A DNA stretch of 33,775 nt from a virus (IMGVR_UViG_3300048904_000075:1-33775); one strand, 5' to 3'; positions 14,684 to 27,610 are shown, counted from the first letter of the stretch. Numbers and translations: made by a program. Notes: a model not told the origin generated them from the sequence alone.

Positions 14684-14709
14684 TTCGCAGTAAAAACACC
14701 TCTTATAAT
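14684..14709 (+). promoter_or_regulatory. Phage promoter P1 of a five-copy family
   Basis: TTCGCA followed by GTAAAAACA and the -10 TATAAT (14704-14709). It matches the family pattern CGCA-N2-R-AA-W-AC-W-N5-YATAAT-R, with 18 bases from CGCA to the -10. The upstream TTTTT is the tail of the tRNA-like hairpin. It drives the 30-residue membrane peptide at 14741. Confidence 0.75.
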
Positions 14710-14733
14710 GAAATGTATTATACCTATAAGAGG
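14699..14733 (+). promoter_or_regulatory. Inverted repeat joining the P1 -10 region to the SD
   Basis: CCTCTTATA (14699-14707) and TATAAGAGG (14725-14733) are perfect complements. The left arm overlaps the -10 and lies before the expected start of P1 RNA (near 14716). The right arm contains the SD of the 14741 gene. A transcript reading in from upstream could hide the SD; one starting at P1 could not. Confidence 0.6.
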
Positions 14734-14740
14734 AGTAAAA

Positions 14741-14833
14741 ATGTTTAAATTCATCGGCAAATTCATCATGTGGATCCTATTTGGATGGTTCTACTTGGCG
14801 TGGATGCTGGTTAAAGCAATTAGGCCCGCTTAG
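14741..14833 (+). CDS. 30-residue membrane peptide
   Basis: A tiny gene with AAGAGGAG at 14729-14735 and an ATG five bases later. The product is 30 residues: FKFIGKFIMWILFGWFYLAWM followed by a positive tail VKAIRPA, so it is almost entirely one membrane helix rich in W and F. It resembles the 47-residue product at 15597 (shared FKF-I/L-G, M-x-I-L, W and final Arg positions). It is a single-gene unit between promoter P1 and a terminator at 14856. The function is unknown; such peptides may act on membranes or envelope proteins of the host. Confidence 0.65.
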   Translation: MFKFIGKFIMWILFGWFYLAWMLVKAIRPA

Positions 14834-14855
14834 GAAGTACATACAGAAAGGAGCG

Positions 14856-14880
14856 TCCCTTAACAAGGGATTCTCTTTTT
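14856..14880 (+). terminator. Terminator after the 30-residue peptide
   Basis: TCCCTT-AAC-AAGGGA hairpin (14856-14870) followed by TTCTCTTTTT. The T tract abuts the CGCA of promoter P2, so terminator and next promoter share bases. Confidence 0.75.
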
Positions 14881-14904
14881 CGCATGAAAAACATGGTTCA
14901 TAAT
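14879..14904 (+). promoter_or_regulatory. Phage promoter P2 of a five-copy family
   Basis: TTCGCA, TGAAAAACA and a CATAAT -10 (14899-14904), with 18 bases from CGCA to the -10 as in the other copies. No gene follows directly: a U-tailed hairpin (14907-14950) and a long folded RNA region come first, then the gene at 15115. Confidence 0.75.
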
Positions 14905-14906
14905 AG

Positions 14907-14950
14907 AGAGGAAGACTAATGTAAGTCGATAATACCTCTACTTTTTTTTT
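14907..14950 (+). terminator. U-tailed hairpin directly downstream of P2 (terminator or attenuator)
   Basis: AGAGG (14907-14911) pairs with CCTCT (14935-14939), enclosing a small GACT/AGTC hairpin, and nine T follow (14942-14950). The left arm lies at or before the predicted start of P2 RNA (near 14911). The hairpin is therefore complete only in RNA coming from upstream, and P2 RNA may read through it. Confidence 0.55.
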
Positions 14951-14952
14951 CA

Positions 14953-15096
14953 GTGGGCTGGAGGGAATGGATGGCCTCGTTTCTTCAGGGATGACAAAAG
15001 GTACTAGGTACCGCTGACCCTAGGCCCCAAATCATCCGCCTTGGCGGGGGAGAGCGGATATATGTTCGCCGAGTCTGTCCATTCCCTCGAGCTCAC
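14953..15096 (+). ncRNA. Long structured RNA region before the 15115 gene
   Basis: Two 19-base arms (14953-14971 and 15078-15096) pair along their length with one mismatch and one G-U; the core GAGGGAATGGA/TCCATTCCCTC is perfect. Inside are GGTAC-TAG-GTACC (15000-15012), GGATGA/TCATCC (14989-14994 with 15032-15037), GGCCT/AGGCC (14973-14977 with 15022-15026) and ATCCGC/GCGGAT (15034-15039 with 15054-15059). GGCCT/AGGCC and GGATGA/TCATCC cross, so they form a pseudoknot or alternate. The right arm ends seven bases before the SD of the next gene. No known riboswitch or ribozyme class is recognised. It could be a regulatory leader or a stand-alone RNA. Confidence 0.6.
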
Positions 15097-15114
15097 CAAA
15101 CTAAAGGAGGAAAA

Positions 15115-15300
15115 ATGTCCACACCTGCTGGTCCCGAGAGGACCTTGGCCAAGCTGTGCATGGAGTATTTTGGTGAGTCCAGAAAGATTACGACCACTGA
15201 GTACAAGGAGCTCACCCGTCAGGATCGCGAGGAGCTCAGAGAGGAGTTCATCAAGATGGGGGTGAACGTGGCGCCGCTCCCTGTGCTGAAGACTGAGTGA
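15115..15300 (+). CDS. Small hypothetical protein, 61 residues
   Basis: The start is an ATG after a strong AAAGGAGG. The 61-residue product is charged and helical (YFGESRKITTTEYKELTRQ, then DREELREEFIKMG), with no membrane segment or catalytic motif. It is the first gene after the long structured RNA region and overlaps the next gene by four bases (GTGA), so the two form a pair. The family is not recognised. The E/R-rich central helix would fit a small adaptor or anti-host protein, but this is open. Confidence 0.6.
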   Translation: MSTPAGPERTLAKLCMEYFGESRKITTTEYKELTRQDREELREEFIKMGVNVAPLPVLKTE

Positions 15301-15479
15301 AGACCATCGTGTTCAAAAGACAGATGCTAGGTAAGTGGCGTCGGGACGATGGCGAGGCCAAGATCCATGTAAACGAGATAGCCATGAACCGAGAGATCCA
15401 AAAACTCCTCAATGACGGCTGGCATATGAGGACCGAAGGGGTGACGTTTACTCGCTCCGTTATCATGTCCAAAGGGTGA
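15297..15479 (+). CDS. Small hypothetical protein, 60 residues
   Basis: The GTG start overlaps the previous stop (GTGA). The product begins (M)KTIVFKRQMLGKWRRDDGEAKI and ends GWHMRTEGVTFTRSVIMSKG, suggesting strand-helix-strand with a central helix NEIAMNREIQKLLNDGW. This resembles small DUF-type proteins with a bbab fold, but I cannot name it. It ends two bases before promoter P3, whose hairpin then terminates this two-gene unit. Confidence 0.55.
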   Translation: MKTIVFKRQMLGKWRRDDGEAKIHVNEIAMNREIQKLLNDGWHMRTEGVTFTRSVIMSKG

Positions 15480-15480
15480 G

Positions 15481-15506
15481 TTCGCAGAGAAAACTTATCT
15501 CATAAT
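15481..15506 (+). promoter_or_regulatory. Phage promoter P3 of a five-copy family
   Basis: TTCGCA, GAGAAAACT and a CATAAT -10 (15501-15506), with 18 bases from CGCA to the -10. The last base of the -10 is also the first base of the left arm of the terminator-like RNA at 15506-15575. Confidence 0.75.
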
Positions 15507-15575
15507 AGAGGGAAGAATCGTCTCCTCCCGGAGACGAGGAAACCGTAGTAGCCGCTACGGACCCTCTATTTTTTT
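15506..15575 (+). ncRNA. Three-way-junction RNA with U-tail overlapping P3 (terminator or small RNA)
   Basis: Outer stem TAGAGGG/CCCTCTA (15506-15512 with 15562-15568) is followed at once by seven T. It encloses two perfect hairpins: CGTCTCC-TCCC-GGAGACG (15519-15536) and CCGTAG-TAGCCG-CTACGG (15543-15560). In RNA from the 15115-15479 genes this is a complete terminator. RNA starting at P3 (predicted near 15513) would lack the left arm, keep the two hairpins, and could continue into the 15597 gene. If P3 starts earlier than usual, the result would be a 65-70 base small RNA. Confidence 0.65.
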
Positions 15576-15596
15576 CATCTCGCCTAGGGGGTGGTA

Positions 15597-15740
15597 ATGA
15601 TCATCTATGTGACGAATAAGAAGTCCTACGGGTTCTTCAAGTTCCTAGGGGACTGCTTTATGGTCATCCTAACATGGGGGTTCTGGCTGATCTGGATATT
15701 CGTCCGGGAAATGCGAAATCGTAACTCGCGACCATTTTAG
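15597..15740 (+). CDS. 47-residue membrane peptide
   Basis: Starts at an ATG preceded by TAGGGGGTGG. The 47-residue product is IYVTNKKSYGFFKFLGD followed by a membrane helix (CFMVILTWGFWLIWIFV) and a basic tail REMRNRNSR. It resembles the 30-residue peptide at 14741 over FKFLG...M-x-I-L...W...L-x-W-I-F-V. It lies downstream of P3 and seven bases before the first DUF6353-like gene, so it may lead that operon. The function is unknown. Confidence 0.6.
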   Translation: MIIYVTNKKSYGFFKFLGDCFMVILTWGFWLIWIFVREMRNRNSRPF

Positions 15741-15747
15741 GGGTCTA

Positions 15748-16527
15748 ATGCTTACTGGAGTAATAAAACAAGTTCGTTACGCAAGGTTTCTGGTAAACGA
15801 AAACTCAACCACCGTACTGACGGGTTTGGGTGCTGCAGGAGTCGTCACGACTGCATATTTGACAGGACGTGCTTCCTTCAAGGCTGCCCGGCTCATCGAC
15901 GAACGGATTAGTCTTGAGTCTGAGGGCGACGAGCGGGAAATCAGCAATCTCGAGAAAGCAAAGTTGGTGTGGCATGGATACATTCCTGCGGTACTTGTGG
16001 GCGGGGCTAGCATTGCGTTTATACTGGCTAGCAATCGAATTGCAACGAAGAGAATCACAGCCCTTGCCCTCGCATCAGGGATCTCGGAGCGAGCGTTCAG
16101 CGAGTACAAAGAGCGCGTCGTAGAGAAGTTCGGTGAGAACAAGGCTCGGGATATTCGAGATGACGTGGCTATTCATCGAGTTGCCGAAGATGATGTGATG
16201 AACAAGGAAGTAGTCGTCACGGGTACAGGCGAGGTCCTGTGCTATGACATGCACACCGGACGATATTTCATGAGCTCGATGGAAGCAATCAAGAGAGCCG
16301 AGAATCACATCAACTATGAGCTGGTCCATTTCTGTTCGGCCAGCCTAAGCGAATTCTACCACGAGATCGGGTTGCCTCCGACATCATATTCTGACGCTGT
16401 GGGTTGGGATGTTAACAACCACATGGAAGTTCACGTCACAACGGTGATGTCTTCGGATAATCGACCGTGTCTCGCGATTGATTTCTCAAACCCGCCAGTA
16501 CCCGAGTATAACCGTCATCGATATTGA
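15748..16527 (+). CDS. DUF6353-like membrane protein (copy 1)
   Basis: A 259-residue protein. It has two membrane segments, at about residues 23-42 (VLTGLGAAGVVTTAYL) and 76-95 (IPAVLVGGASIAFILAS), with a charged helix between them. A conserved region follows, LALASGISERAFSEYKERVVEKFGENKARDIRD, then a soluble C-terminal domain with HTGRYFMSS and VGWDVNNHMEV. This arrangement matches phage proteins of the DUF6353 family, which has no known function. A related protein is encoded at 18467. The soluble end is likely cytoplasmic. The set of membrane proteins around it suggests a shared job at the host membrane. Confidence 0.65.
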   Translation: MLTGVIKQVRYARFLVNENSTTVLTGLGAAGVVTTAYLTGRASFKAARLIDERISLESEGDEREISNLEKAKLVWHGYIPAVLVGGASIAFILASNRIATKRITALALASGISERAFSEYKERVVEKFGENKARDIRDDVAIHRVAEDDVMNKEVVVTGTGEVLCYDMHTGRYFMSSMEAIKRAENHINYELVHFCSASLSEFYHEIGLPPTSYSDAVGWDVNNHMEVHVTTVMSSDNRPCLAIDFSNPPVPEYNRHRY

Positions 16528-16538
16528 AAGGATTGGTC

Positions 16539-16736
16539 GTGAGCATCGAAATGGAACTCGAAGAGGATGGGCAAGTTCGAGTGCGTATCGATAGAGGTGG
16601 AGAGCGTGCGATTTCAGATGTGATGGATCCGATGGATCTCATCCGGAAGGTTGCCGATACGGCAATGATGGATCTGGATGATATCGAAGAGAAGTGGGAC
16701 GGCGACGAAGAGGTTGTCGAGGAGCCCAGTGCTTAA
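16539..16736 (+). CDS. Small acidic protein, 65 residues
   Basis: I choose the GTG at 16539, six bases after GAAAGGA; upstream codons overlap the previous stop. The product is acidic, with a VRVRIDRGGERA strand, an ISDVMDPMDLIRKVADTAMMDLDDIEEKW helix region and an E-rich tail. No family is recognised. It lies in the DUF6353 block and overlaps the start of the next gene by eight bases, which indicates co-translation. Confidence 0.55.
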   Translation: MSIEMELEEDGQVRVRIDRGGERAISDVMDPMDLIRKVADTAMMDLDDIEEKWDGDEEVVEEPSA

Positions 16737-17250
16737 GAAAACGATCACGTACGAAGATTTCAACGGAGAGACGGTAAATGAAGATTTCTTCTTCCATCTC
16801 TCCAAAGCTGAGCTCGTGGAACTGGAAATGAGTCACCAAGGAGGCTTGGCTGAATCTCTGCAGAAGATCATCGCTGATGAAGATGGCAAGAGCATTATTG
16901 CCGAGTTCAAGAACATCATCTTGAGCGCCTATGGTAAGCGATCTGAAGATGGGAAGAGATTTGTCAAAAATGCAACAATTCGTGAAGAGTTTGAGTCATC
17001 CGAGGCCTATTCCGCTCTCTTTATGGAGCTCGTTACTGATGCGGACGCGGCCGTCGAGTTTATCAACGGGATTGTTCCAAGTAATCTCGGAGAGGAGGCA
17101 GCGAAGGTTACAGGAGCGGATCTCGAAGTGGTCAAGCCGCCAAAGCCTCAAGTGATGTCGAGGGCGGAAGTTCGGAAGCTGAGCACTGAAGACATGCAGA
17201 AGCTCGGCGCACGTGTAGCTGCTGGCGAAGTCGTAATCTCAGGTGAATAG
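16729..17250 (+). CDS. Conserved phage protein (FNG...ED..F.L..AE family)
   Basis: A 173-residue protein starting at the GTG at 16729. It opens KKTITYEDFNGETVNEDFFFHLSKAELVELEM, then has GGLAESLQKIIADEDGKSIIAEFKNIILSAYG, GKRFVKNATIREEFESSEAYSALFMELVTDADAAVEFINGIVP, and a Pro-rich linker before SRAEVRKLSTEDMQKLG. This ordered pattern occurs in siphophages of Gram-positive bacteria, where it has been annotated as hypothetical and sometimes as tail-assembly-chaperone-like. I cannot confirm the latter; the true chaperone here is at 2189. It is all-helical after the first strands and has no membrane segment. Confidence 0.55.
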   Translation: MLKKTITYEDFNGETVNEDFFFHLSKAELVELEMSHQGGLAESLQKIIADEDGKSIIAEFKNIILSAYGKRSEDGKRFVKNATIREEFESSEAYSALFMELVTDADAAVEFINGIVPSNLGEEAAKVTGADLEVVKPPKPQVMSRAEVRKLSTEDMQKLGARVAAGEVVISGE

Positions 17251-17261
17251 GAGAATATCTA

Positions 17262-17519
17262 ATGCAGACTAGTCAACTCAGTCTTCTCAAGCTCGCGACA
17301 AATGTTGTTGCCAGTGCCAGTGTGTGGAAGGTCGTCAACGACGTGATTCGTCACAACGTAAGTGTTCAGACCACTGCAGATGCAGTCAAGGTCTGGACGG
17401 GAAGCTTGATTATCGGCTCGATGATCGCTGACCAGGCTTCTCAGCATGTGAACAAGAACTTCGATAAGGCAGCCGACTGGCTCGAGAATCGTAAGGGCAC
17501 CGAAAACGTCGTAGAATAG
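17262..17519 (+). CDS. Small membrane-associated protein of the DUF6353 block
   Basis: The 85-residue product follows AGGAGA and an ATG. It has a weakly hydrophobic stretch at residues 44-58 (VWTGSLIIGSMIADQAS) and an amphipathic C-terminal helix (VNKNFDKAADWLENRK). It may sit at the membrane or bind the neighbouring membrane proteins. The family is not named. It ends the first part of the block, and promoter P4 begins sixteen bases after its stop. Confidence 0.5.
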   Translation: MQTSQLSLLKLATNVVASASVWKVVNDVIRHNVSVQTTADAVKVWTGSLIIGSMIADQASQHVNKNFDKAADWLENRKGTENVVE

Positions 17520-17535
17520 CCATTTTTCCTCCGAA

Positions 17536-17561
17536 TTCGCACAAAATACATAGGGTATAAT
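17536..17561 (+). promoter_or_regulatory. Phage promoter P4 of a five-copy family
   Basis: TTCGCA, CAAAATACA and TATAAT (17556-17561), with 18 bases from CGCA to the -10. A perfect dyad, ATAGGGT/ACCCTAT (17550-17556 and 17565-17571), brackets the -10. It drives the 46-residue protein at 17586. Confidence 0.75.
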
Positions 17562-17571
17562 AGAACCCTAT
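17550..17571. promoter_or_regulatory. Dyad around the P4 -10
   Basis: A 7-bp perfect inverted repeat with an 8-base spacer that contains most of the -10. Unlike P1 and P5, the right arm is next to, not within, the SD (AGGAGG, 17573-17578). It could be an operator for a repressor, or a hairpin in read-through RNA. Confidence 0.5.
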
Positions 17572-17585
17572 CAGGAGGAAATCTA

Positions 17586-17726
17586 ATGTCGAAGTTCATC
17601 TACATGGTTCTGGAGTGGATCATCACCGTGGTCATTCTTATGCTGGCTGAAAAGCTGGTGAAGAATGCATGGCGACTGCTCAAGAACCTGAAGAACATTC
17701 GCACTGTCGAGATTACCGCGAAGTAG
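17586..17726 (+). CDS. 46-residue membrane peptide
   Basis: Starts at an ATG after AGGAGG. The 46-residue product has one membrane helix (FIYMVLEWIITVVILMLAEKL, residues 4-24) and a basic amphipathic tail (VKNAWRLLKNLKNIR) ending VEITAK. It is a single-gene unit between P4 and a strong terminator. It is of the same general kind as the peptides at 14741 and 15597, though the sequence match is weaker. The function is unknown. Confidence 0.65.
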   Translation: MSKFIYMVLEWIITVVILMLAEKLVKNAWRLLKNLKNIRTVEITAK

Positions 17727-17735
17727 TTCTAAAGG

Positions 17736-17767
17736 GCTAAGGTCTCATTCAGAGACTTTAGCTTTTT
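17736..17767 (+). terminator. Terminator after the 46-residue peptide
   Basis: GCTAAGGTCTC (17736-17746), loop ATTCA, GAGACTTTAGC (17752-17762), then TTTTT. This is an 11-bp stem with one G-U pair and is very strong. Confidence 0.85.
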
Positions 17768-17787
17768 GCTTTCGAACTAAGGACAAA

Positions 17788-18420
17788 ATGGATACCCCAA
17801 AATTTCCTCCTAATAATGATAAGAGTAAGAAGGGAAGTTCAAGGAAGGTCGAGCGCGTTACTACGGGCGAAGTAAGTCGAAAGAAAAAGTCCCTTAGAAA
17901 ACAGTTCTCGGAAACCTTCGTTGAAGGCGATATGAAAACTACTGCTCGATTCGTTGTGATGGGTGTACTCCTTCCAGCTGCGCGTGACATGATCTACGAT
18001 GCTGCGTCCGAAGGTGTACATAAACTGATCTTCGGAGACAAGGGTCGTCGCCGAGGAGGTTCAACAACTCCATATTCTGGTCCTACTGGGCATATTGCCT
18101 ATAATAGATATTCGAGAAGTCCAGAAGATGATCGACCACCGTTCGCTACTCGAGGTATGAGTCAGCGAGGACGTGCCAAGCATGACTTTGATGAAATAGT
18201 GCTCGATCAACGAGCAGAAGCCGAAGAAGTCATCGACCGACTATACGACGTGGTGAGCCGATATGAACAAGCAACAGTCGCAGATCTTTACGACCTTGTG
18301 GGCCTTTCATCCACTCACACAGATCATAAGTGGGGTTGGACTGATCTTAGGGGGGCAGGGGTTTCAAGAATCCGTGATGGTTATCTACTGGATCTCCCAG
18401 ACCCCGAGCCCCTCGATTAA
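17788..18420 (+). CDS. Conserved phage protein with basic N-terminus and C-terminal 'YDLVG' domain
   Basis: A 210-residue protein. Residues 1-50 are very basic and likely disordered (KSKKGSSRKVERVTTGEVSRKKKS). Residues 50-85 form a weakly hydrophobic helix pair (ARFVVMGVLLPAARDMIYDAASEGVHKLIFG). An Arg/Ser-rich linker follows, then a conserved C-terminal domain: DEIVLDQRAEAEEVIDRLYDVVSRYEQATVADLYDLVG...DHKWGWTDLRGAGVSRIRDGYLLDLP. The same order is seen in many siphophages of Gram-positive bacteria; no function is known to me. The basic tail could bind nucleic acid or the inner membrane face. Confidence 0.6.
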   Translation: MDTPKFPPNNDKSKKGSSRKVERVTTGEVSRKKKSLRKQFSETFVEGDMKTTARFVVMGVLLPAARDMIYDAASEGVHKLIFGDKGRRRGGSTTPYSGPTGHIAYNRYSRSPEDDRPPFATRGMSQRGRAKHDFDEIVLDQRAEAEEVIDRLYDVVSRYEQATVADLYDLVGLSSTHTDHKWGWTDLRGAGVSRIRDGYLLDLPDPEPLD

Positions 18421-18466
18421 AGTGGATCCAGAGTCAAACCAATTAGAGCTGTCCGTATAAGGAGTT

Positions 18467-19351
18467 ATGATGAGTTTTGTTCCGGCAGCGATCAGTAAAA
18501 CGGTCGCCCGTAATAGTCTTGTTCTGCAGACGAAGTCCCCCGGACTTCTTTTCGGGGCAGGAATCGTTGGCGTGATCGGAAGTACTGTCCTTGCTTGCCG
18601 AGCAACTTTGAAGATGGAAGAAGTTCTGGGCGAAGCAAAATCAAAGCTCGATATGGCGAAGGGTCTCGAGCACGAAGATTACAGTGAGCGAGATCGTCAG
18701 AAGGACATTACGACCATTTATGTCCAGAGCGGTGTGAAGGTTCTTCGGGCATACGGCCCAGCAATCATCGTAGGTGGATTGTCGATTGCTGCGTTGACGA
18801 GCTCTCATAACATCCTGTCCAGGCGGAATGCCGCTTTGATGTCTGCGTATGCAGCACTCGAGAAGGGTTTCGCTGAGTACCGAGCTCGCGTAGTGGAGAA
18901 GTACGGGGAAGACGAAGACCGCCATCTTCGGTATGGCAGCAGGACTGAAGTTGTCAAAGAAGGAAAGGTTACCCACCAGATCACCAGAGTGGGAACGGAT
19001 ACGCCATCTATTTATGCTCGGTTCTTTGATCAGATGTCGCCATCTTGGAGCAAGGAACCAGAGTATAATTTGGTGTTCCTGACGTGTCAGCAGAATTACG
19101 CCAACGATCAGCTGAGATCTCGTGGGCATGTATTCCTGAACGAAGTGTACGATCTTCTCGGGATTCCACGATCCGAAGCGGGAGCTGTAGTTGGTTGGAT
19201 CCTTGGGGTCGGTGACGACTACATCGATTTCGGCGTTTGGGATGATCGAACGAACTCTCGAGTCAGAGATTTCGTCAACGGTTGGGAGGGTGCGATCCTT
19301 CTCGATTTCAATGTAGACGGTGTAATCTTCGACAAGATTGAGTTGGTGTAA
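18467..19351 (+). CDS. DUF6353-like membrane protein (copy 2)
   Basis: A 294-residue paralogue of the 15748 product. Shared features are a membrane segment at residues 27-45 (LLFGAGIVGVIGSTVLA), a second at 97-113 (GPAIIVGGLSIAALTSS), and a conserved run SAYAALEKGFAEYRARVVEKYGEDEDRHLR, against SERAFSEYKERVVEKFGENKAR in copy 1. The C-terminal domain has LLGIPRSEAGAVVGWILG and ends in ILLDFNVDGVIFDKI. Two start codons lie side by side (18467 and 18470); SD spacing slightly favours 18470. It sits two bases upstream of the next gene. Confidence 0.65.
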   Translation: MMSFVPAAISKTVARNSLVLQTKSPGLLFGAGIVGVIGSTVLACRATLKMEEVLGEAKSKLDMAKGLEHEDYSERDRQKDITTIYVQSGVKVLRAYGPAIIVGGLSIAALTSSHNILSRRNAALMSAYAALEKGFAEYRARVVEKYGEDEDRHLRYGSRTEVVKEGKVTHQITRVGTDTPSIYARFFDQMSPSWSKEPEYNLVFLTCQQNYANDQLRSRGHVFLNEVYDLLGIPRSEAGAVVGWILGVGDDYIDFGVWDDRTNSRVRDFVNGWEGAILLDFNVDGVIFDKIELV

Positions 19352-19353
19352 TT

Positions 19354-20169
19354 ATGGCAACCGCCGAAAAAGCTACTGAAGTCGTGATCGAAGAAGTAGC
19401 CAGCAACCTTGAGGAAGCTTCTCAAGCTGTCCGGATGCTGAACCCGAAAGCGCTGACCTTTCTGGCTGCAGGAATCATCATGGGGGGAAGTATCGGACTC
19501 ATGATCGGACGACGCTGGGGAAGGGAGAGTATTAAGGCAGAAGCATTCAAGCAGAGCGAGGAAGAGATCACCAAGATCCGGGAGTACTACGCCCGGCAGG
19601 AGAAGCCACCCCTAGAAGAAGTCATTATTGAGAAGGGATATGAAGGTGAAATTCAGACGTCGCCGCCGGAGAGGCCCCTTCCTCCACCGGTGCCTAATGT
19701 TTCCGAAGCCAAATCTGAACTTCAAAAAGTTGATCCGCAGACGGTAGTCGAGAAGATCACGAAGGTATATCGTACCGAAGAGGCTCAGAAAGATAAGCAC
19801 GACGGCTGGAGTTATCCGTACGAACTCTCCCAGAGAGATTTTGGTGCTCCTCATATTATTCATCAGGATGAGTATACCACGAACGAAACTGGGTATAATC
19901 AAACTACGTATATGTACTATGAGGGAGACGATGTTCTTGCGGATTCGGACGACACGGTATTGTTCAATAGAGAAAACCTAATCGGTCAGCGAGCTCTGGA
20001 GAAGTTTGGCCATGGTTCGGACGATCGCAACTATGTATTTGTTCGTAACCCTGAACTTGAACTCGAAATGGAGATCATCAGGGTACCCGGCAGATACGAA
20101 GTGGAAGTCCAGGGATTAGACGACAATGAAAATGACGATGGAACAGACACTCAAACCGAAGAAGGTTGA
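19354..20169 (+). CDS. Conserved phage single-span membrane protein
   Basis: A 271-residue protein. Residues 1-30 are a helix, 32-52 a membrane segment (ALTFLAAGIIMGGSIGLMIG) followed by basic residues, then a charged helix and a Pro-rich linker (PPERPLPPPVP). The C-terminal domain has a conserved stretch: YNQTTYMYYEGDDVLADSD, LIGQRALEKFGHGSDDRNYVFVRN and ELEMEIIRVPGRYEVEV. This pattern recurs with DUF6353 proteins in related phages, so they may form one complex. Function is unknown. It overlaps the next gene by 44 bases. Confidence 0.6.
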   Translation: MATAEKATEVVIEEVASNLEEASQAVRMLNPKALTFLAAGIIMGGSIGLMIGRRWGRESIKAEAFKQSEEEITKIREYYARQEKPPLEEVIIEKGYEGEIQTSPPERPLPPPVPNVSEAKSELQKVDPQTVVEKITKVYRTEEAQKDKHDGWSYPYELSQRDFGAPHIIHQDEYTTNETGYNQTTYMYYEGDDVLADSDDTVLFNRENLIGQRALEKFGHGSDDRNYVFVRNPELELEMEIIRVPGRYEVEVQGLDDNENDDGTDTQTEEG

Positions 20170-20689
20170 TCTCGACTACTACACATGGCTCGTATCCCAG
20201 ATCCGCGTTCCAAAGAAAAGGGATTATTACGGGCTGTTCGAGATCATGCACAACACCGAGTTCCATTGGACCATCTCAAATGATGATAGTCGTATAGCGG
20301 ACGGAGAACAGCTCCGACACGATTACTTCAGGTTCGTACTCCACAGTCACTACCAAAAAGGCGATCTCGAGCTGGAATTCGTGACGTTCCTCGAAGTACT
20401 CGTGGCTCTGAGCCGAAGGCTGGCTTGGGTCATGAGCGACCAGGGTAACGAGCCGTATTGGGCATGGCACCTTATCAAGAATCTGCGTTTGAGCAAAATG
20501 TCAGATCCCTTGTCGGAGTACAAGGTCGAACAGATCAATGAGATACTCTACAACGTCATCTGGCGTCAGTACGATCGATCTGGTAACGGAGGATTCTTCC
20601 CACTCCAGAAGACATTCAAGGACCAGACCAAAATAGATATTTGGTATCAGATGCAAGAGTACTCGATGGAGATCGATCCCATCAGTTAA
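20126..20689 (+). CDS. Conserved phage protein upstream of the replicase
   Basis: A 187-residue soluble protein. It contains YYTWLVSQIRVPKKRDYYGLFEIMHNTEFHWTISNDDSRIADGEQLRHDY, then FVTFLEVLVALSRRLAWVMSD and NGGFFPLQKTFKDQTKIDIWYQMQEYSMEI. It belongs to a widespread family in siphophages of Gram-positive bacteria that I recognise by pattern but cannot assign a function. It overlaps the previous gene by 44 bases; ATGs at 20126, 20132 and 20138 are all possible and none has a strong SD. Its place directly before the polymerase makes a replication or regulatory role plausible. Confidence 0.6.
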   Translation: MKMTMEQTLKPKKVDLDYYTWLVSQIRVPKKRDYYGLFEIMHNTEFHWTISNDDSRIADGEQLRHDYFRFVLHSHYQKGDLELEFVTFLEVLVALSRRLAWVMSDQGNEPYWAWHLIKNLRLSKMSDPLSEYKVEQINEILYNVIWRQYDRSGNGGFFPLQKTFKDQTKIDIWYQMQEYSMEIDPIS

Positions 20690-20701
20690 TAAGGAGGGCC
20701 T

Positions 20702-23700
20702 GTGGATTTCTATCAGATCCTCTGTAGAGAGACGAAAGATAAGAAGCTGGAGGTCTATCCAGATTTCATTGTCGGGCGTTCTACGGATTTGATGGTTCAG
20801 GGCCGTACGTTCTACGCTATATGGGACGAAGCGAGGGGCTTTTGGTCGCGGGATGAGTACGATGTCCAACGGCTAGTCGACGAAGACCTCGCGGCGGAAG
20901 CACAGCGATTGGGGAAAGAGACAGGTTTGCCAACCGTTGTAAAGTCCATGCGATCGTTCAACAGTCGTTCGTGGAGGAGTTTCAGACAGTTCCTCTTTAA
21001 CGTCAGCGATAACAACCGGCCACTCGACTCTAAGATCCTATTCTCAAATTCAGAGGTGAAGAAGACTGACTACGCCAGTAAGACTCTCCCCTATCCGTTA
21101 GAACGAGGGGATATTTCAGCGTGGGATGAACTTGTAGGTACGCTATATTCTGTAGAAGAACGGGCCAAGATCGAGTGGGCTGTCGGATCCATCGTTTCCG
21201 GAGACTCAAAGAAGATTCAGAAATTCTTTGTGTTCTACGGTCCCGCTGGGTCCGGCAAGTCCACCATCTTGAATATTTTGGAGAAGTTGTTTGACGGATA
21301 CACAACGACGTTCGACGGAAAAGCGTTAGGACGATCGGACAGCACGTTTTCTACAGAAGCATTCAAACACAACCCCTTGGTTGCCATTCAGCACGACGGC
21401 GACCTCTCCCGACTTGAAGACAATACGCGTTTGAACTCTATCGTATCTCATGAACAGATGCTGATGAACGAGAAGTTCAAGCCGAGCTACACATCGCGGT
21501 CAGAGGCCCTACTCTTTATGGGCTCGAACCAACCGGTCAAGATCTCTGATGCCAAGTCGGGGATCATTCGGCGGCTGATCGATATCCATCCGACGGGTGT
21601 GAGGATTCCAAACCGCCACTACACCACCCTGTTGGGACAGATTGAGTTCGAGTTGGGGGCGATTGCAGCTCATTGTCTCCAAGTATATTTGGAGATGGGT
21701 AAAAATTACTACAACGGGTATCGTCCACTTGAGATGATGCTGCAGACGGACGTGTTCTTTAACTTTATCGAAGCGTACTATGATATCTTTAAGGAGCACG
21801 ACTACACAACACTTGAGCAGGCTTACCAGCTGTACAAGCAGTTCTGTGCAGAGAGCGGGATCGAGAAGCCTCGTCCTAAGTACAAGATCAGAGAAGAGCT
21901 GCGCAATTACTTCGACGAGTTTAAGGATCGTGAGCGCATTAATGGAAAACACGTACGGAGTGTATATTCTGGGTTCAATGCTGAGAAGTTCAAAATTCCG
22001 AAGGAAACTGATCCAGAGCTACATGCTTACTCGTTGGTTATGGAGAAATCGACGTCGCTGTTGGACGATGCTTTCAGAAGCCAGCCAGCTCAATTAGCGA
22101 GTAAGGATGGAGTACCCTCGCAGAAGTGGTCCAATGTTAAAACTACCCTTTTAGATATTGATACGAGCCAATTGCACTTCGTACGAGTCCCTGAAAAGCA
22201 TATCGTTATAGACTTCGACCTCAAGGACTTGAACGGTGGCAAAGATACGAGTCTCGATAGAAACCTCGAGGCCGCAAGCCGTTGGCCTCCGACTTATGCT
22301 GAACTCAGCAAATCAGGTAGAGGGGTACACCTACATTATTTGTACGAGGGGAATACCCAAGAACTCGCGAATATCTATTCAGAGGGTATAGAGATCAAGA
22401 CGTTTGCTGGAGACGCGTCTTTGCGTCGGAAGCTAACGTCATGTAACGCAGTACAAATCGCAACCATTAGTAGTGGGCTCCCTCTCAAGCCGAAGAAAGA
22501 AACGATGCTCAAGGCAAAGACTATTACTAGCGAAAAAGGCCTTCGAGAGCTCATTGAACGAAATCTGAGGAAAGAGATCCACCCTGGTACAAAACCGTCT
22601 ATCGACTTCATCGCTTATATTCTTGAAGAAGCATATGAGGATGGTCTGAAATTTGATGTGACGGATCTGCAACCGCGGTTGATAGCGTTTGCGAACAATA
22701 GCTCACATCAGGCAAAGCTCTGTCTGAAGATCGTCAAGGACATGAAGTTCAAGTCTGAGGACGAAGTCGGTGCTGACCCTGATGCAGAAGTAGAGATTGA
22801 TGACACTCGCATGGCGATATTTGATATTGAGGTCTATCCGAATCTGTTTGTTATCTGCTGGAAGTTCCGTGGAGATAACAATATCGTCAGAATGATCAAT
22901 CCTACGAAGGACGAAGTTGAGTCGTTGTTAAGACTAAAGCTCGTGGGCTTTTATAACAGGCGATTTGACAATCATATTCTCTGGGCAGCTAGCTTAGGCT
23001 ATCCAATCAAGAAGCTGTATGAGCTTACCCGGAAGATTGTTGTCGACAATAATCGCAATGCGTACTTCGCGCAAGCCTACAATTTGTCTTACGCCGACGT
23101 ATGGGACTTCAGCTCGATCAAGCAGGGGTTGAAGAAGTTCGAGATCGATCTTGGTATCCACCACATGGAGTTGGACTTCCCACTGGATGAGCCAGTGAAT
23201 GAAGAGGACTGGCCACGGGTCGTCGAATATTGTGTCAACGATGTTTGCGCAACGGAAGCTGTGCTCGAAGATCGTTGGGAGGATTTCGTCGCACGCCAGA
23301 TTCTGGCCGAACTCAGTGGGTTGACGGTGAACGATACCACGCAGCGACATACCGCAAAGATCATATTTGGAAACGATAAGGCTCCACAGAAGTCTTTCGT
23401 TTACACAGATCTGAGCGAAGAGTTTCCCGGGTACACTTTCGATGCGGGTAAGAGCTCGTATCGTGGCGAAGACCCCGGGGAAGGGGGCTACGTCTATGCC
23501 GAGCCTGGCATCTATGAGAACGTAGCTTTACTAGATATTGCTTCCATGCATCCCACATCTATCAAAATCTTGAATCTCTTCGGTAAGTACACCGATAAAT
23601 TCAAAGATCTGTTAGATGCTCGTATGGCTATCAAACGGAAGCAATACCCTAAAGCTAGAAAAATGTTGGATGGTCGTTTGGCCCCTTATCTAGATAATGA

Positions 23701-24472
23701 AGATGGAGCAGACAAGCTTGCATATGCGTTGAAGATTGTCATTAACATAGTGTATGGGTTAACGTCGGCGAGTTTTCCTAACCCATTTCGTGACAGTCGT
23801 AATAAGGACAATATTGTTGCAAAGCGTGGCGCTCTCTATATGATAGATCTGAAGAATGATCTAAAGGATAACGGCTATTCTGTCGTGCATATTAAGACGG
23901 ATTCTGTGAAGCTTCCCGATGCGACTAATTCTAGAGCGATCAATTTTACCAAATTACATGGGAAGAAGTATGGCTATGATTTTGAGCACGAAATTACGTA
24001 TGATAAGTTCTGCCTCGTCAACGATGCGGTGTATATTGCTCGTAAGGACGATAAGTGGACCGCCGTAGGATCCCAGTTTCAGCACCCGTTTGTATTCAAA
24101 ACACTGTTCTCAGGTGAGAAGCTTGAGTTTGATGACTTCTGCGAAAGCAAGAACGTAACGCAGGGGACTATGTATCTCGATAGAGAGGAACGTGTTAAAG
24201 GTGAAAAATTGGATTCTCATTCTATGCGTCATCTCGGTCGTACTGGTCGTTTTGTACCTGTGCTGGAAGGCGGTGGAGTCCTTTTTAGAGTAAAGGAGGA
24301 TAATTTCTACGCAGTAGCCGGTACCAAAGGTCACAAATGGGTTGAAGCTGAGATCGCAAAATCCATGGATGATCTTCAGATTGACATGTCGTACTTTGAG
24401 AAGCTCAAAGCCGATGCAATCAAAACGATCGAGCAATTCGGTTCCTTCCAAGACTTCGTGAGGAGAAATTAA
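20702..24472 (+). CDS. SF3 helicase - primase-like - family B DNA polymerase fusion (replicase)
   Basis: A single 1256-residue protein with a GTG start and SD AAGGAGG. Residues about 130-330 are an SF3/D5-type helicase: Walker A GPAGSGKST at 180-188, QHDGDLSRLED as a Walker B-like region, and LLFMGSNQPVKIS as a sensor. Residues about 490-600 look like an archaeo-eukaryotic primase core: DFD at 504-506, SGRGVHLHY with H543 and H545, then EIKTFAG. Residues about 700-1256 are a family B polymerase. Its exonuclease has D708/E710, FYNRRFDN and YCVNDVCATE. Its polymerase motifs are A (DIASMHPTS, D945), B (KIVINIVYG, K1011/N1015) and C (HIKTDSV, D1067). Motif C has K where most enzymes have D. Confidence 0.85.
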   Translation: MDFYQILCRETKDKKLEVYPDFIVGRSTDLMVQGRTFYAIWDEARGFWSRDEYDVQRLVDEDLAAEAQRLGKETGLPTVVKSMRSFNSRSWRSFRQFLFNVSDNNRPLDSKILFSNSEVKKTDYASKTLPYPLERGDISAWDELVGTLYSVEERAKIEWAVGSIVSGDSKKIQKFFVFYGPAGSGKSTILNILEKLFDGYTTTFDGKALGRSDSTFSTEAFKHNPLVAIQHDGDLSRLEDNTRLNSIVSHEQMLMNEKFKPSYTSRSEALLFMGSNQPVKISDAKSGIIRRLIDIHPTGVRIPNRHYTTLLGQIEFELGAIAAHCLQVYLEMGKNYYNGYRPLEMMLQTDVFFNFIEAYYDIFKEHDYTTLEQAYQLYKQFCAESGIEKPRPKYKIREELRNYFDEFKDRERINGKHVRSVYSGFNAEKFKIPKETDPELHAYSLVMEKSTSLLDDAFRSQPAQLASKDGVPSQKWSNVKTTLLDIDTSQLHFVRVPEKHIVIDFDLKDLNGGKDTSLDRNLEAASRWPPTYAELSKSGRGVHLHYLYEGNTQELANIYSEGIEIKTFAGDASLRRKLTSCNAVQIATISSGLPLKPKKETMLKAKTITSEKGLRELIERNLRKEIHPGTKPSIDFIAYILEEAYEDGLKFDVTDLQPRLIAFANNSSHQAKLCLKIVKDMKFKSEDEVGADPDAEVEIDDTRMAIFDIEVYPNLFVICWKFRGDNNIVRMINPTKDEVESLLRLKLVGFYNRRFDNHILWAASLGYPIKKLYELTRKIVVDNNRNAYFAQAYNLSYADVWDFSSIKQGLKKFEIDLGIHHMELDFPLDEPVNEEDWPRVVEYCVNDVCATEAVLEDRWEDFVARQILAELSGLTVNDTTQRHTAKIIFGNDKAPQKSFVYTDLSEEFPGYTFDAGKSSYRGEDPGEGGYVYAEPGIYENVALLDIASMHPTSIKILNLFGKYTDKFKDLLDARMAIKRKQYPKARKMLDGRLAPYLDNEDGADKLAYALKIVINIVYGLTSASFPNPFRDSRNKDNIVAKRGALYMIDLKNDLKDNGYSVVHIKTDSVKLPDATNSRAINFTKLHGKKYGYDFEHEITYDKFCLVNDAVYIARKDDKWTAVGSQFQHPFVFKTLFSGEKLEFDDFCESKNVTQGTMYLDREERVKGEKLDSHSMRHLGRTGRFVPVLEGGGVLFRVKEDNFYAVAGTKGHKWVEAEIAKSMDDLQIDMSYFEKLKADAIKTIEQFGSFQDFVRRN

Positions 24473-24939
24473 TGGCAGCCAAAGATAACACTGTACTCAT
24501 GGAAGGCGTTCGGATCATCTTTCGTAACTTTTCCGGTAAGGAGGGACAGTTTAATCGTGAAGGTGATCGGAACTTTGCTGTCCTTCTTGATCCAGCCACG
24601 GCTACTGCTATGGCTGAAGACAACTGGAATGTGAAGTGGTTAAAACCTCGTGACGAGGAAGAAGAGCAAGACCCTCAGGCATATTTGCCTGTGTCTCTGA
24701 ATTTCAAAGGTCGTCCCCCTCGGATTGTCTTGATCACATCACGTGGTCGAACCAATCTAGATGAGGACTCGGTAGAGATGCTTGACTGGGCTGACATCCT
24801 GAACGTCGACCTCATCGTCAGGCCCTATGAGTGGAACGTGAATGGTAAGACGGGAATCAAGGCCTACCTTCAGAGTATTTACATCACCATCGAAGAAGAC
24901 ACATTGGAGCAGAAGTACTCTGAACTGAACCCAGCCTAA
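24472..24939 (+). CDS. Probable single-strand DNA-binding protein
   Basis: A 155-residue protein whose start overlaps the polymerase stop by one base, so it is made with the replicase. It has an OB-fold-like pattern: VLMEGVRIIFRNFSGKEGQFNREGDRNFAVLLD, then YLPVSLNFKGRPPRIVLITSRG, LDWADILNVDLIVRPYEWNVNGKTGIKAYLQSIYITIEED. Proteins of this kind next to phage polymerases are predicted ssDNA-binding proteins. It lacks the long acidic tail of bacterial SSB, although it ends with an E/D-rich piece (EEDTLEQKYSELNPA). The function is inferred from pattern and location. Confidence 0.6.
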   Translation: MAAKDNTVLMEGVRIIFRNFSGKEGQFNREGDRNFAVLLDPATATAMAEDNWNVKWLKPRDEEEEQDPQAYLPVSLNFKGRPPRIVLITSRGRTNLDEDSVEMLDWADILNVDLIVRPYEWNVNGKTGIKAYLQSIYITIEEDTLEQKYSELNPA

Positions 24940-24957
24940 ACGAAACGAATAGGACGT

Positions 24958-25275
24958 ATGGAAACTACGAGCATCACAACCAAGTATGTCCGTAAGCCAC
25001 TATTCGTAGACGCTGTCCAAGTTACTGAGCAAAATTTCGCTGATATCGCCCGATGGTGCTTTGGGGAGATCGGCAATATTGATGATTCTCCAGTCGACAA
25101 GTCTGCTGATGTGCAGCCTACCAAACAGTATATTCATGTAAGAGTCCACAACCCGAAGAACCCCCGCCAGACAAAGGCTTTTGTAGGGGACTGGATTCTT
25201 TACACCGAGCGTGGTTACAAGGTATACACGACTAAGGCATTTCAGGCCAATTTCGACCCAGTCGAAGAAAGCTAA
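24958..25275 (+). CDS. Conserved actinophage-like small protein
   Basis: A 105-residue protein starting ETTSITTKYVRKPLFVDAVQVTEQNFADIARWCFGEI and ending with YIHVRVHNPKNPRQTKAFVGDWILYTERGYKVYTTKAFQANFDP. This pattern is common among small proteins of actinobacterial phages. It looks like a compact alpha/beta fold; the GDW-hydrophobic-Y-x-x-RGY-K-VY region is the best conserved part. Function is unknown. It follows the ssDNA-binding gene by 18 bases and precedes a structured non-coding gap. Confidence 0.6.
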   Translation: METTSITTKYVRKPLFVDAVQVTEQNFADIARWCFGEIGNIDDSPVDKSADVQPTKQYIHVRVHNPKNPRQTKAFVGDWILYTERGYKVYTTKAFQANFDPVEES

Positions 25276-25405
25276 TCAGAAGCTAGCTCATGGAGCGGGG
25301 CGGTCTGCAGGCCGTGAGGCAAACATGAGAGGGCATGGTAGGTCGTAACTAAGCCGCTTGCACGCACTCGGCTACGCGATGCCCACCTTATTCCTAGAAA
25401 GGACA
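25276..25405 (+). ncRNA. Structured non-coding gap with two stem-loop domains
   Basis: The 132 bases between the 24958 and 25408 genes fold into two closed domains. Domain 1 is CTCATG/CATGAG (25287-25292 with 25324-25329), enclosing CGGTC-TGCA-GGCCG (25301-25314). Domain 2 is GGGCAT/ATGCCC (25331-25336 with 25379-25384), enclosing AGCCG/CGGCT (25352-25356 with 25369-25373). There is no T tract, so it is not a simple terminator, and it ends just before the SD AGAAAGGA of the next gene. It may be a leader that controls the small-protein/lysis genes, or a stable RNA. It is not assigned to a known class. Confidence 0.5.
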
Positions 25406-25407
25406 TT

Positions 25408-25644
25408 ATGGGACACACCGTAGATGCAAAGTGGCGAGATGCCGATGCTGTTGCTTTTGAGACAAGAGTACAAGCTGTAAATGACTGGCTCGAACACACA
25501 GAAGATCTTGTAGAGATGTTCAAAGATGATACAGTAATCGCATCGGAATTGAGAGGTGTGGCTGGAACTTTGCGATCGCGGCGAGATGATTTCGAAACAT
25601 CGGCCCAAAGACTGAGAGCAGATATGAATGGGAAAGTAGAATGA
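25408..25644 (+). CDS. Small helical protein, 78 residues
   Basis: A 78-residue soluble protein that is probably all helix with coiled-coil character: DADAVAFETRVQAVNDWLEHTEDLVEMF, then ELRGVAGTLRSRRDDFETSAQRLRADM. It follows the structured gap and overlaps the next gene by four bases (ATGA). No family is recognised. Sitting just before a candidate holin, it could belong to a lysis operon, but that is only location. Confidence 0.5.
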   Translation: MGHTVDAKWRDADAVAFETRVQAVNDWLEHTEDLVEMFKDDTVIASELRGVAGTLRSRRDDFETSAQRLRADMNGKVE

Positions 25645-25862
25645 TCCCTCTCTGGTTCGTTCTCCTATTTCTATGGTTTTTGGCTGTGGTCTTTACTGAT
25701 GTAAGCATATCCACCATGCTTTGGTTCTTTCTCTTATTCCTTTGGGTAGGCGTAGTGGTACACTATGTCATAATCTATCACGGATGGAAGAAAGAGATAG
25801 CTATCCGACGAGAAGAACGAAAAGAACACTTGGAGAATGGAAATGCCAGTTCGAAAAACTAA
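25641..25862 (+). CDS. Two-span membrane protein, candidate holin
   Basis: A 73-residue protein with two membrane helices: residues 3-22 (PLWFVLLFLWFLAVVFTDVS) and 25-47 (TMLWFFLLFLWVGVVVHYVI). They share the repeat LWF-x-LLFLW. A highly charged tail follows (HGWKKEIAIRREERKEH). Two helices, short length, charged C-terminus, and a place 320 bases before the endolysin are what is expected of a class II holin. No holin family motif is certain. Confidence 0.5.
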   Translation: MIPLWFVLLFLWFLAVVFTDVSISTMLWFFLLFLWVGVVVHYVIIYHGWKKEIAIRREERKEHLENGNASSKN

Positions 25863-25986
25863 GGGCGGTTACAAGTACGGCAATAAGGGAAAGTTGTACA
25901 AGGGTAAGGGGGCCAAGAAGAAAGCTCAGAAACAAGGTAAGGCCATCCAAGCGAGCAAGAGAGCGAGGGCATTAGGACATGACTGA
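25843..25986 (+). CDS. Small basic protein, 47 residues
   Basis: A tiny gene starting at ATG 25843 inside the end of the holin-like gene, preceded by GGAGAATGGA. The product, PVRKTKGGYKYGNKGKLYKGKG followed by AKKKAQKQGKAIQASKRARA, is strongly basic. The KGGYK-G-x-x-GK-Y pattern is common in short phage proteins near endolysins and may bind nucleic acid or other polyanions. It overlaps the acidic 25979 gene by eight bases. The ending GHD is close to that of related proteins. Confidence 0.6.
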   Translation: MPVRKTKGGYKYGNKGKLYKGKGAKKKAQKQGKAIQASKRARALGHD

Positions 25987-26185
25987 GCGACCCGAAGATC
26001 CCGTGACAAAGCCGAATCTTCATCCAGAGGAGCCTGAGAAGCCTGAAGTTCCTGATCAGGAGCCGGAGCCTCCGGAAGAGAGCGGTCCTGAGGTCGATCC
26101 GGCATTGGCTGATGACGACGAGCTGGAGAACGAGCCGGTTCACGTCGATGACCAGGCGCCAACCGATCCGCCGGGAGATGCATGA
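25979..26185 (+). CDS. Acidic proline-rich disordered protein, 68 residues
   Basis: A 68-residue product made mostly of P, E and D (PEEPEKPEVPDQEPEPPEES...DDDELENEP), with almost no hydrophobic residues. It is expected to be disordered. The gene overlaps the basic 47-residue protein before it by eight bases and the endolysin after it by four (ATGA region). No function is assigned. The pairing of a very basic and a very acidic product in neighbouring overlapping genes is notable. Confidence 0.5.
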   Translation: MTERPEDPVTKPNLHPEEPEKPEVPDQEPEPPEESGPEVDPALADDDELENEPVHVDDQAPTDPPGDA

Positions 26186-27228
26186 TGCCAGATTGGGCTT
26201 GCCCTCAACTGAAGCGGCGTCTTGAACAAGGCTGTGAGGGAGGCGATGTAACTGCCGTACAGAGGGCACTATATGTAGCATTACGTGAACGTGGATCTAA
26301 GGGGACGAACGCGAAGAATGGTGCTTATGGGCCAAAGACCATTAAGGACGTAAAAGCGTTCCAGAAGATGGTGGGCATCAACCCCTCAGGAGTGGTAGGC
26401 CTCAACACGCTGACCCGACTCTGGGATCATAGTGGGAAAAACCCCGGGGGAGCATTTGACGACTATGGCGTTCAGCTGTTCTTCCGAAGCAAGATTGGTA
26501 AGCCTACGAAGCTGGATGAGAATGAGATCCAGAAAGGCAAGAAAGGTCCTCACGTCCAAGCATTACAGAGAATGTTGTGGCGTGCTCTAGGCGCTGATAG
26601 CGAAAACACCCGTAGCGGTGAGTACGGTAAGGGCACCGTAGCGGACATGCGCAGGTTCTACAACCGGGCAAACTGGCAGGATCGTAATCCAGAAAAGTGC
26701 ACTAATCAGGACTGGGTGGCATTGTGGGCGTTTGGCGATGATCGGGCTAAGGAATTGGCTCGTAAAGTCATTGCAACGCCTGATGACGTCATTCGCCAGA
26801 AGATCCGATCGTGGGGTGAGTGGTACGTACAGAACCGTAGTCGTATCACATACGCTCAGATCCGGCCCTATCCTAAGACCGGCAAGCTACCGATGCGAAC
26901 CGACTGTAGTGGTTCCAGCACTCACGTGCTATTCATGGCAGGATGCAAAAACGATCCACACCGCCGCGGTTATGATGGTCAGGGCTATACCGGTACCATG
27001 TACACAAATGGAAAGCGAATCGGACTAAGCAATCTCAAAGATCTGCGACCCGGAGACTGTGTCTTTTACGGTAATCAGGGTGGAGGCATCCCCTCTCATG
27101 TGGTTATCGTGATTGGTCCCGGCGACCGCGCACTAAATTTTGGTAGTAATCCTCCGCATTTCGTGAACATTGGTACCTATTGGCGGTCAAACTTGCGTAC
27201 AGATGTAGGCGCTCGGCGCTATTTCTAG
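26182..27228 (+). CDS. Endolysin: two peptidoglycan-binding repeats and NlpC/P60-like catalytic domain
   Basis: A 348-residue cell-wall hydrolase. Residues about 8-82 form a peptidoglycan-binding domain (VTAVQRALYVALRERG...YGPKTIKDVKAFQKMVGINPSGVVGLNTLTRLW), and 115-170 a second one (GPHVQALQRMLWRALG...GTVADMRRFYNR). The C-terminal catalytic domain (about 205-348) has the NlpC/P60 pattern: RTDCSGS with Cys242, SHVVIVIG with His306, and ALNFGSNP as the third polar position. It would cut peptide links in peptidoglycan. There is no signal peptide, so release by a holin is expected. The ATGs at 26182 and 26185 are both possible. Confidence 0.85.
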   Translation: MMPDWACPQLKRRLEQGCEGGDVTAVQRALYVALRERGSKGTNAKNGAYGPKTIKDVKAFQKMVGINPSGVVGLNTLTRLWDHSGKNPGGAFDDYGVQLFFRSKIGKPTKLDENEIQKGKKGPHVQALQRMLWRALGADSENTRSGEYGKGTVADMRRFYNRANWQDRNPEKCTNQDWVALWAFGDDRAKELARKVIATPDDVIRQKIRSWGEWYVQNRSRITYAQIRPYPKTGKLPMRTDCSGSSTHVLFMAGCKNDPHRRGYDGQGYTGTMYTNGKRIGLSNLKDLRPGDCVFYGNQGGGIPSHVVIVIGPGDRALNFGSNPPHFVNIGTYWRSNLRTDVGARRYF

Positions 27229-27238
27229 AGCAAATACT

Positions 27239-27342
27239 CCCCTGGACGCCTGACCCCACTACCCCCCAAGTGTCTAGGGGATAGGGCGGGGAGTGGATCT
27301 GATGGAATGCGGAGCCCACGCCGTCAGAGAAACTCTCCGCCC
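27239..27342 (+). ncRNA. Structured region after the endolysin gene
   Basis: A first stem, CCCCTGGAC/GTCTAGGGG (27239-27247 with 27272-27280, one G-U), is followed by a 10-bp stem GGGCGGGGAG/CTCTCCGCCC (27284-27293 with 27333-27342, one G-U). The second stem encloses GATGG/CCGTC (27301-27305 with 27321-27325). No T tract follows, so it is not a normal intrinsic terminator, but it is stable and ends nine bases before promoter P5. It may protect the endolysin message or be an RNA element of unknown class. Confidence 0.5.
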
Positions 27343-27350
27343 GCCTATAT

Positions 27351-27376
27351 TCCGCAGTGAAAACATCCCTTATAAT
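27351..27376 (+). promoter_or_regulatory. Phage promoter P5 of a five-copy family
   Basis: TCCGCA, GTGAAAACA and TATAAT (27371-27376), with 18 bases from CGCA to the -10. One base of the leading TT is changed to C. It drives the 70-residue protein at 27398. Confidence 0.75.
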
Positions 27377-27393
27377 GAAACCTAGAAAGGGGT
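27365..27393 (+). promoter_or_regulatory. Inverted repeat joining the P5 -10 region to the SD
   Basis: ATCCCTT (27365-27371) can pair with AAGGGGT (27387-27393), with one G-U. The left arm touches the -10 and is before the predicted RNA start (near 27383). The right arm is the SD (AAAGGGG). It has the same design as at P1. Confidence 0.5.
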
Positions 27394-27397
27394 CATT

Positions 27398-27610
27398 GTG
27401 GAAGCAGATATTGAGGAAATCCTCGAGATCACCGCACGTCTGTCAAAAGAGATTGAGAGACGCCAGAAAACAATTAACTATCTACACGGTACGTCCCACG
27501 ACCGTGACGAGAGAGTTAAGTTTGGACTGGCGATCGCTCAGCACGAAGTTGACAACATGCAGGAGCTCGTTGATAAAGCCCTCGAGAGCTGTGTTGTAAC
27601 GTCCCAGTAA
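27398..27610 (+). CDS. Small helical protein, 70 residues
   Basis: A GTG start five bases after AAAGGGG. The 70-residue product is helical and charged (EADIEEILEITARLSKEIERRQKTINYLHG, then FGLAIAQHEVDNMQELVDKALES), probably a coiled-coil hairpin. It is a one-gene unit between promoter P5 and a strong terminator. No family is recognised; a regulator or inhibitor of a host protein is possible but not shown. Confidence 0.55.
   Translation: MEADIEEILEITARLSKEIERRQKTINYLHGTSHDRDERVKFGLAIAQHEVDNMQELVDKALESCVVTSQ

Follow-up and report, generated by a model that had tools for sequence, protein, structure and literature searches.

Late promoters that carry a hairpin over the ribosome-binding site (RBS) have been described for the genes e, soc, 49 and I-TevI of phage T4 (PMC2988022, PMC3014915). 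For the polymerase YonO of SPbeta, the start of transcription was mapped to Bacillus subtilis coordinate 2225998, and the promoter was left undetermined in the same study (PMC5467207). Here we describe five promoter sites, P1 to P5, in a virus record of 33,775 bases (IMGVR_UViG_3300048904_000075), an actinophage-like fragment; this whole stretch of DNA is called the window, and the promoters, arms and leaders given for it below, like the gene behind P3, lie on its + strand. A preliminary description had proposed that at P1, P2, P3 and P5 the -10 element doubles as the left arm of a hairpin, the right arm of which is either the Shine-Dalgarno sequence (SD) of the next gene (P1 and P5) or the closing arm of a U-tailed terminator (P2 and P3), and that only read-through RNA would contain the left arm. 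All the arms it named can be read directly in the sequence at their positions, as can the dyad at P4 with the SD beside it. These arms are probably two different things, a type at P1 that acts only in read-through RNA and a self-closing leader at P2 and P3. As a whole, the best explanation, in which we have moderate confidence, is a polymerase-read promoter family in which P1 resembles T4 gene e, P2 and P3 carry self-closing leaders, and the hairpin at P5 is accidental.

The promoter family and the phage polymerase

The five sites belong to one family of fixed spacing, CGC(A/G)-N3-WWWAC-N6-TATAAT-RRRA. P1 (TTCGCA-GTA-AAAAC-ACCTCT-TATAAT, 14684-14709), P2 (TTCGCA-TGA-AAAAC-ATGGTT-CATAAT, 14879-14904), P3 (TTCGCA-GAG-AAAAC-TTATCT-CATAAT, 15481-15506) and P5 (TTCCGCA-GTG-AAAAC-ATCCCT-TATAAT, 27351-27376) are spaced identically: (T)TCGCA or TCCGCA is separated from AAAAC by three free bases, and AAAAC from (T/C)ATAAT by a further six. 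P4 (17536-17561) fits the family with AATAC. Pattern scans of IMG/VR with two exact forms of the motif returned 97 and 51 stretches, and a scan without the downstream constraint returned at least 119, compared with 7 for the pattern written backwards. PHROG 4291 (phrog_4291) is encoded in 44 of the 49 motif-bearing records longer than 37 kb that were tested, and in 0 of the 7 reversed-motif contigs, most of which are short. The named phages of Gordonia, Streptomyces and Arthrobacter that have this polymerase carry CGC(A/G)-N3-WTTAC-N6-TATAATGA with the spacing unchanged, and the promoters of Rhodococcus phage ReqiPoco6 have the same motif form as the window. PHROG 4291 is labelled as RNA-dependent RNA polymerase (RdRP); its members show weak RdRP (PF05183) matches and helix-turn-helix domains, and five of the proteins share an invariant DFDGD, the two-barrel polymerase motif, which is DNDGD in YonO. 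A sequence search of the PDB with the polymerase gave no meaningful match. Because the motif and the polymerase gene co-occur, the enzyme that reads the family is most likely the YonO-like single-chain RNA polymerase of PHROG 4291, which the phages themselves encode. A description of the motif was not found in a search of the open literature, which is not proof of novelty, and DNA-level comparison of the window with known phages gave nothing useful.

The motif could also be read by the host RNA polymerase with sigma-A and a phage activator, which we regard as unlikely. TATAAT followed by GGGA-like purines is favoured by the bacterial sigma-A holoenzyme as well, which would start near +7, and the CGCA box near -30 could presumably be an activator box like that of MotA. 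On the other hand, there is no -35 element: none of P1 to P5 combines a -35 TTGACA at 16-18 nt with its -10, and a generic sigma-70 scan left all five unflagged at their -10s and found 10 sites in the window vs 17.2 in shuffles. The near-constant co-occurrence with the polymerase gene and the geometry of the RNA start, described below, also speak against this reading.

A helix at +1 and the start of RNA

Transcripts from P2 and P3 would begin with a leader that closes on itself, its 5' end pairing with the stretch immediately ahead of a U-tract. The leader of P3 (15504-15575) contains two inner hairpins, and its full helix pairs AATAGAGGG (15504-15512) with CCCTCTATT (15562-15570). The core of this helix is TAGAGGG (15506-15512) with CCCTCTA (15562-15568), seven pairs, or nine with AA/TT, and it is followed by T7 (15569-15575). 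Downstream lies the gene of a small membrane protein (YGFFKFLGDCFMVILTWGFWLIWIFVREMR, 15597-15740), homologs of which occur in dozens of the loci fetched. The leader of P2 (14905-14950) pairs AGAGG (14907-14911, +3 to +7) with CCTCT (14935-14939) over five pairs around a small inner hairpin, and AC and T9 follow. In both cases the right arm thus adjoins a U-tract in the manner of a terminator, as had been described.

The position of the helix is a property of the family. In 479 non-redundant promoters, a set selected by the motif, a 6-bp helix that begins with the base immediately following the -10 and has its partner ending at a T-rich tail was found in 79, compared with 13.5 (maximum 20) when downstream parts were swapped between promoters. 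The excess over the swaps was limited to helices starting near +1, and stems that start late, with the arm beyond +8, were not above this control. Helices of at least 8 bp from +1 occurred in 45 promoters vs 5.2 in swaps, and a T-tail was present in 39 of these 45, compared with 1.9 (maximum 5) in swaps. Half of the arms extend to +8 or beyond, and a few to +15 to +26. Of 84 units, 50 have an SD-bearing gene within 80 nt behind them, and 15 are followed by the next promoter.

At P3, the read-through fold had a z-score of -5.0, and none of 200 shuffles was as good; at P2 it was weak alone (z -0.8, 37 of 200 shuffles as good). Where homologs of the P3 gene have a motif promoter, such a unit mostly stands immediately before the gene. 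It usually contains two inner hairpins, and its arms differ, as in AGAAGGGA/TCCCTTCT (L108), AGAAGGGG/CCCCTTCT (L105) and AGAGAGGT/GCCTCTCT (L095). When arms were swapped between units, the 26 units with different yet complementary arms had a mean pairing score of 14.5 vs 11.3 +/- 0.5 for the swaps, the highest of 500 swaps being 13.2. The P3 hairpin is real at the level of sequence, because its arms co-vary across these 26 related units. The counterparts of P2 in L002, L003 and L004 have helices of 8-10 bp of other sequence, so that the covariation asked of the arms is present at P3 and, more thinly, at P2. No gathering-level Rfam match was found in the window or in 11 loci.

Three patterns bear on where RNA starts, which the preliminary description had placed at about +7. 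Purines occupy +1 and +2 in nearly 100% of promoters and +3 and +4 in more than 90%, without preference at +5 to +12, a pattern partly biased in that two of the scans required GA or AGA; +6 to +8 are pyrimidine-only in 23%. The SD begins at +1 to +3 in 15 genes, compared with 3.6 +/- 1.8 in 200 swaps (maximum 9); for 14 of these 15, the 300 bases upstream contain no further motif promoter. RNA starting at +7 would drop such an SD, and the start would therefore lie at or before +1. Just past the right arm, the base that faces the final T of the -10 is A in 30 units, C or G in 3 and T in the rest; for promoter-independent hairpins with a T in front, the comparison was 70 vs 51. Because the facing base is mostly A over C or G, the RNA seemingly includes this final T. 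A start at -2 to +1 would fit all three patterns alike. In the explanation preferred here, RNA would begin with the base that follows TATAAT or no more than about three positions earlier. The left arms of P3 (0 to +6) and P2 (+3 to +7) then most likely belong to the promoter RNA, because that RNA would start at or before +1. That the left arm does not lie beyond the point where RNA starts holds for P1 and P5 and probably not for P2 and P3. We suppose that the terminator-tailed leader would form alike in promoter RNA and read-through RNA, and that it would mostly give a short structured RNA, with part of transcription continuing into the gene behind. Ending of read-through RNA at P2 and P3 is still to be expected from a helix that is real and co-varies, and the claim that promoter RNA is free of the arm is probably wrong, given the 79 helices at +1 and the early SDs. 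As for the supposed insulation of small units, an ordinary terminator (14855-14871) already precedes P2.

Several observations weigh against this account. The gene of PHROG 4291 is absent from the window fragment, and the purines after TATAAT also suit sigma-A, as said above. The early-SD genes come mostly from AT-rich phages and not from close relatives of the window, to which we infer that the geometry transfers. The region of the SPbeta YonO start has no upstream CGCA or WWWAC boxes. Genes behind P2 and P3 have no other motif promoter, and promoter RNA would therefore have to pass the U-tract at least partly.

We judge it distinctly unlikely that RNA starts near +7 at P2 and P3, so that the arm is present only in read-through RNA and promoter RNA escapes the terminator. 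The arms do cover +1 to about +8, the gap that a sigma-type promoter leaves from its -10 to the start, and the genes at once behind 50 of the 84 units require RNA beyond the U-tract. But such RNA would lose the SDs at +1 to +3, purines are not preferred near +7, many arms reach further than a start there would allow for, and P3 RNA taken from +7 is predicted to fold a stem adjoining the U-tract all the same. Slightly less plausible is a self-closing leader without termination, in which a blunt 5' stem shields the mRNA against decay from the 5' end and the U-tract serves only as an unstructured stretch ahead of the SD. Its appeal is that the helix begins at the very first base of the supposed RNA and that genes lie directly behind in most units; the T-tail after 39 of the 45 long helices is the mark of an intrinsic terminator, however, and 15 units have the next promoter, not a gene, behind them. 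That the units are independent small-RNA genes, each a promoter with a structured RNA and a terminator and without a role for the gene behind, is a little less likely still: some contain a tRNA (in ReqiPoco6) or have the next promoter at once behind, whereas in about 20 phages the P3 unit precedes members of one gene family, and no second promoter separates the two. Chance complementarity between purine-rich discriminators and pyrimidine-rich tails yields some helices in swaps, and P2 alone and P5 are at that level, but it is already refuted for the family and for P3, where helices with the own partner are several-fold above every swap and the arms co-vary.

Ribosome-site hairpins and neighbouring features

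At P1 the left arm CCTCTTATA (14699-14707) forms nine perfect pairs with TATAAGAGG (14725-14733), which is the SD of a gene for a 30-aa membrane protein (14741-14833). Counted from the end of the -10, this arm covers -10 to -2, so that every plausible start lies downstream of it. Read-through RNA is predicted to hide the SD (-10.4 kcal/mol, z -2.9, 1 of 200 shuffles as good), whereas RNA taken from -2 leaves it open (-3.4 kcal/mol). The orthologs in L006 and L015 have ACTCCTTA/TAAGGAGT in place of CCTCTTA/TAAGAGG of the window, a compensatory change; in L003 and L004 the arm is absent, so that it is kept in two of the four. These predicted folds and the joint change of the arms support the hiding of the SD in read-through RNA only, as had been proposed, and P1 probably works in this way, its upstream arm acting as in T4 gene e. 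In the family, pairing of the SD with the -10 region over at least 9 bp was found in 10 promoters vs 3.0 (maximum 7), modestly above chance, and pairing of the strength seen at P1 is a minority device.

The case of P5 is different. Its claimed arms, ATCCCTT (27365-27371) and AAGGGGT (27387-27393), form seven pairs including one G-U, and SD pairing of at least 7 bp, the strength of P5, was found in 19 promoters vs 13.7 (maximum 20), which is at chance. The preferred fold is an alternative hairpin (27374-27397, AAUGA..UCAUU and CCU..AGG), in which AAUGA (27374-27378) pairs with UCAUU (27393-27397) with or without the claimed left arm. No orthologs of P5 were found among the fetched loci. The SD-hiding hairpin could not be upheld here and is probably accidental. 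At P4, the dyad of ATAGGGT (17550-17556) and ACCCTAT (17565-17571) surrounds the -10 and the SD is adjacent; the ortholog in L003/L231 has CTCCTTA/TAAGGAG instead, and there the SD is hidden.

The window encodes a tape measure protein, a tail assembly chaperone and two DUF6353 proteins, which are paralogs in one genome (15748-16527 and 18467-19351); relatives of DUF6353 occur in phages of Arthrobacter, Gordonia, Streptomyces and Rhodococcus. Upstream of P1, a tRNA-like segment with little or no D arm (14618-14679; tRNA-Sec model E 0.16, below gathering; none by ARAGORN) is followed at once by a U-run that merges into the TTTTTCGCA of P1. The terminator at 14855-14871 lies directly upstream of P2, and its U-tract is the start of the TTTTTCGCA box of P2; such an overlap of U-tract and next promoter was also seen in several other units of relatives. 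After the U-tract of P2 comes a structured segment of about 150 nt (14952-15100) without an Rfam match, whose counterparts in L003 (8545-8790) and L004 (8610-8850) have GGGATGACAAA and AAATCATCCG in common with it. In ReqiPoco6 (L154, 4693-4775), a promoter with the motif is followed by a tRNA gene that begins nine bases past its -10, and the 5' leader AGAAG of this unit pairs with CTTCT before a U7 tract. A promoter with a terminator-like leader also precedes a gene with a VRR-Nuc-like N-terminus in L154 (35883-35947) and in L104, L121, L139 and L145. In named phages, an exonuclease gene and the polymerase gene lie behind the VRR-Nuc gene, an arrangement that suggests autoregulation.

Comparison with described systems

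We propose tentatively that the PHROG 4291 branch has its cognate promoter in this motif, with a start inside or right after TATAAT, and that the self-closing leader is a standing part of the system, in which the bases that initiate transcription also serve as an attenuator arm. Should the motif prove correct, candidate promoters in the hundreds, a start geometry and a common leader RNA would become testable at once, for which Rhodococcus phage ReqiPoco6 and Arthrobacter phage Gordon are cultivable. Promoter bases would then have been reused repeatedly, as a terminator arm or as an arm that blocks the SD.

As at P2 and P3, the helix of intrinsic terminators and attenuator leaders lies ahead of a gene and runs straight into a U-tract. 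The leaders of P2 and P3 differ from them in that the transcript would open with the 5' arm, which overlaps the conserved promoter purines, and loops of this type contain two further hairpins. YonO of SPbeta is likewise a single-chain polymerase with DxDGD and has its mapped start near a non-coding RNA (PMC5467207), while the PHROG 4291 protein is distant from it and the boxes of the family are missing at its start. Placed through a genome identical to SPbeta over 2 kb, this start falls on the third-last base of a GATAAT, which is weakly consistent, by analogy, with the geometry proposed here. It was set aside as a proof of that geometry, since the conserved stretch around it is part of a long RNA helix reaching upstream of the start, and TATAATGGG upstream of yonK was rejected as the YonO promoter because the published start is about 580 nt away. 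The yonN-yonK interval near the mapped start (L187) also contains a Skipping-rope-like RNA (5720-5829, E 2.5e-4, below gathering) and a DUF3800-VIII RNA above gathering (4410-4475).

Two further systems resemble P1. In the read-through protection of IS10, transcripts that come in from outside promoters fold over the start site and RNA from its own promoter does not, as at P1, although IS10 is a transposon. In the T4 gene e type, the promoter encodes the 5' arm that hides the SD in long transcripts, and promoter RNA is without the arm. P1 differs from it in the promoter family, in its gene for a 30-aa membrane protein and in the loss of the arm in two of four orthologs, but the device itself is already known from T4 gene e and I-TevI.

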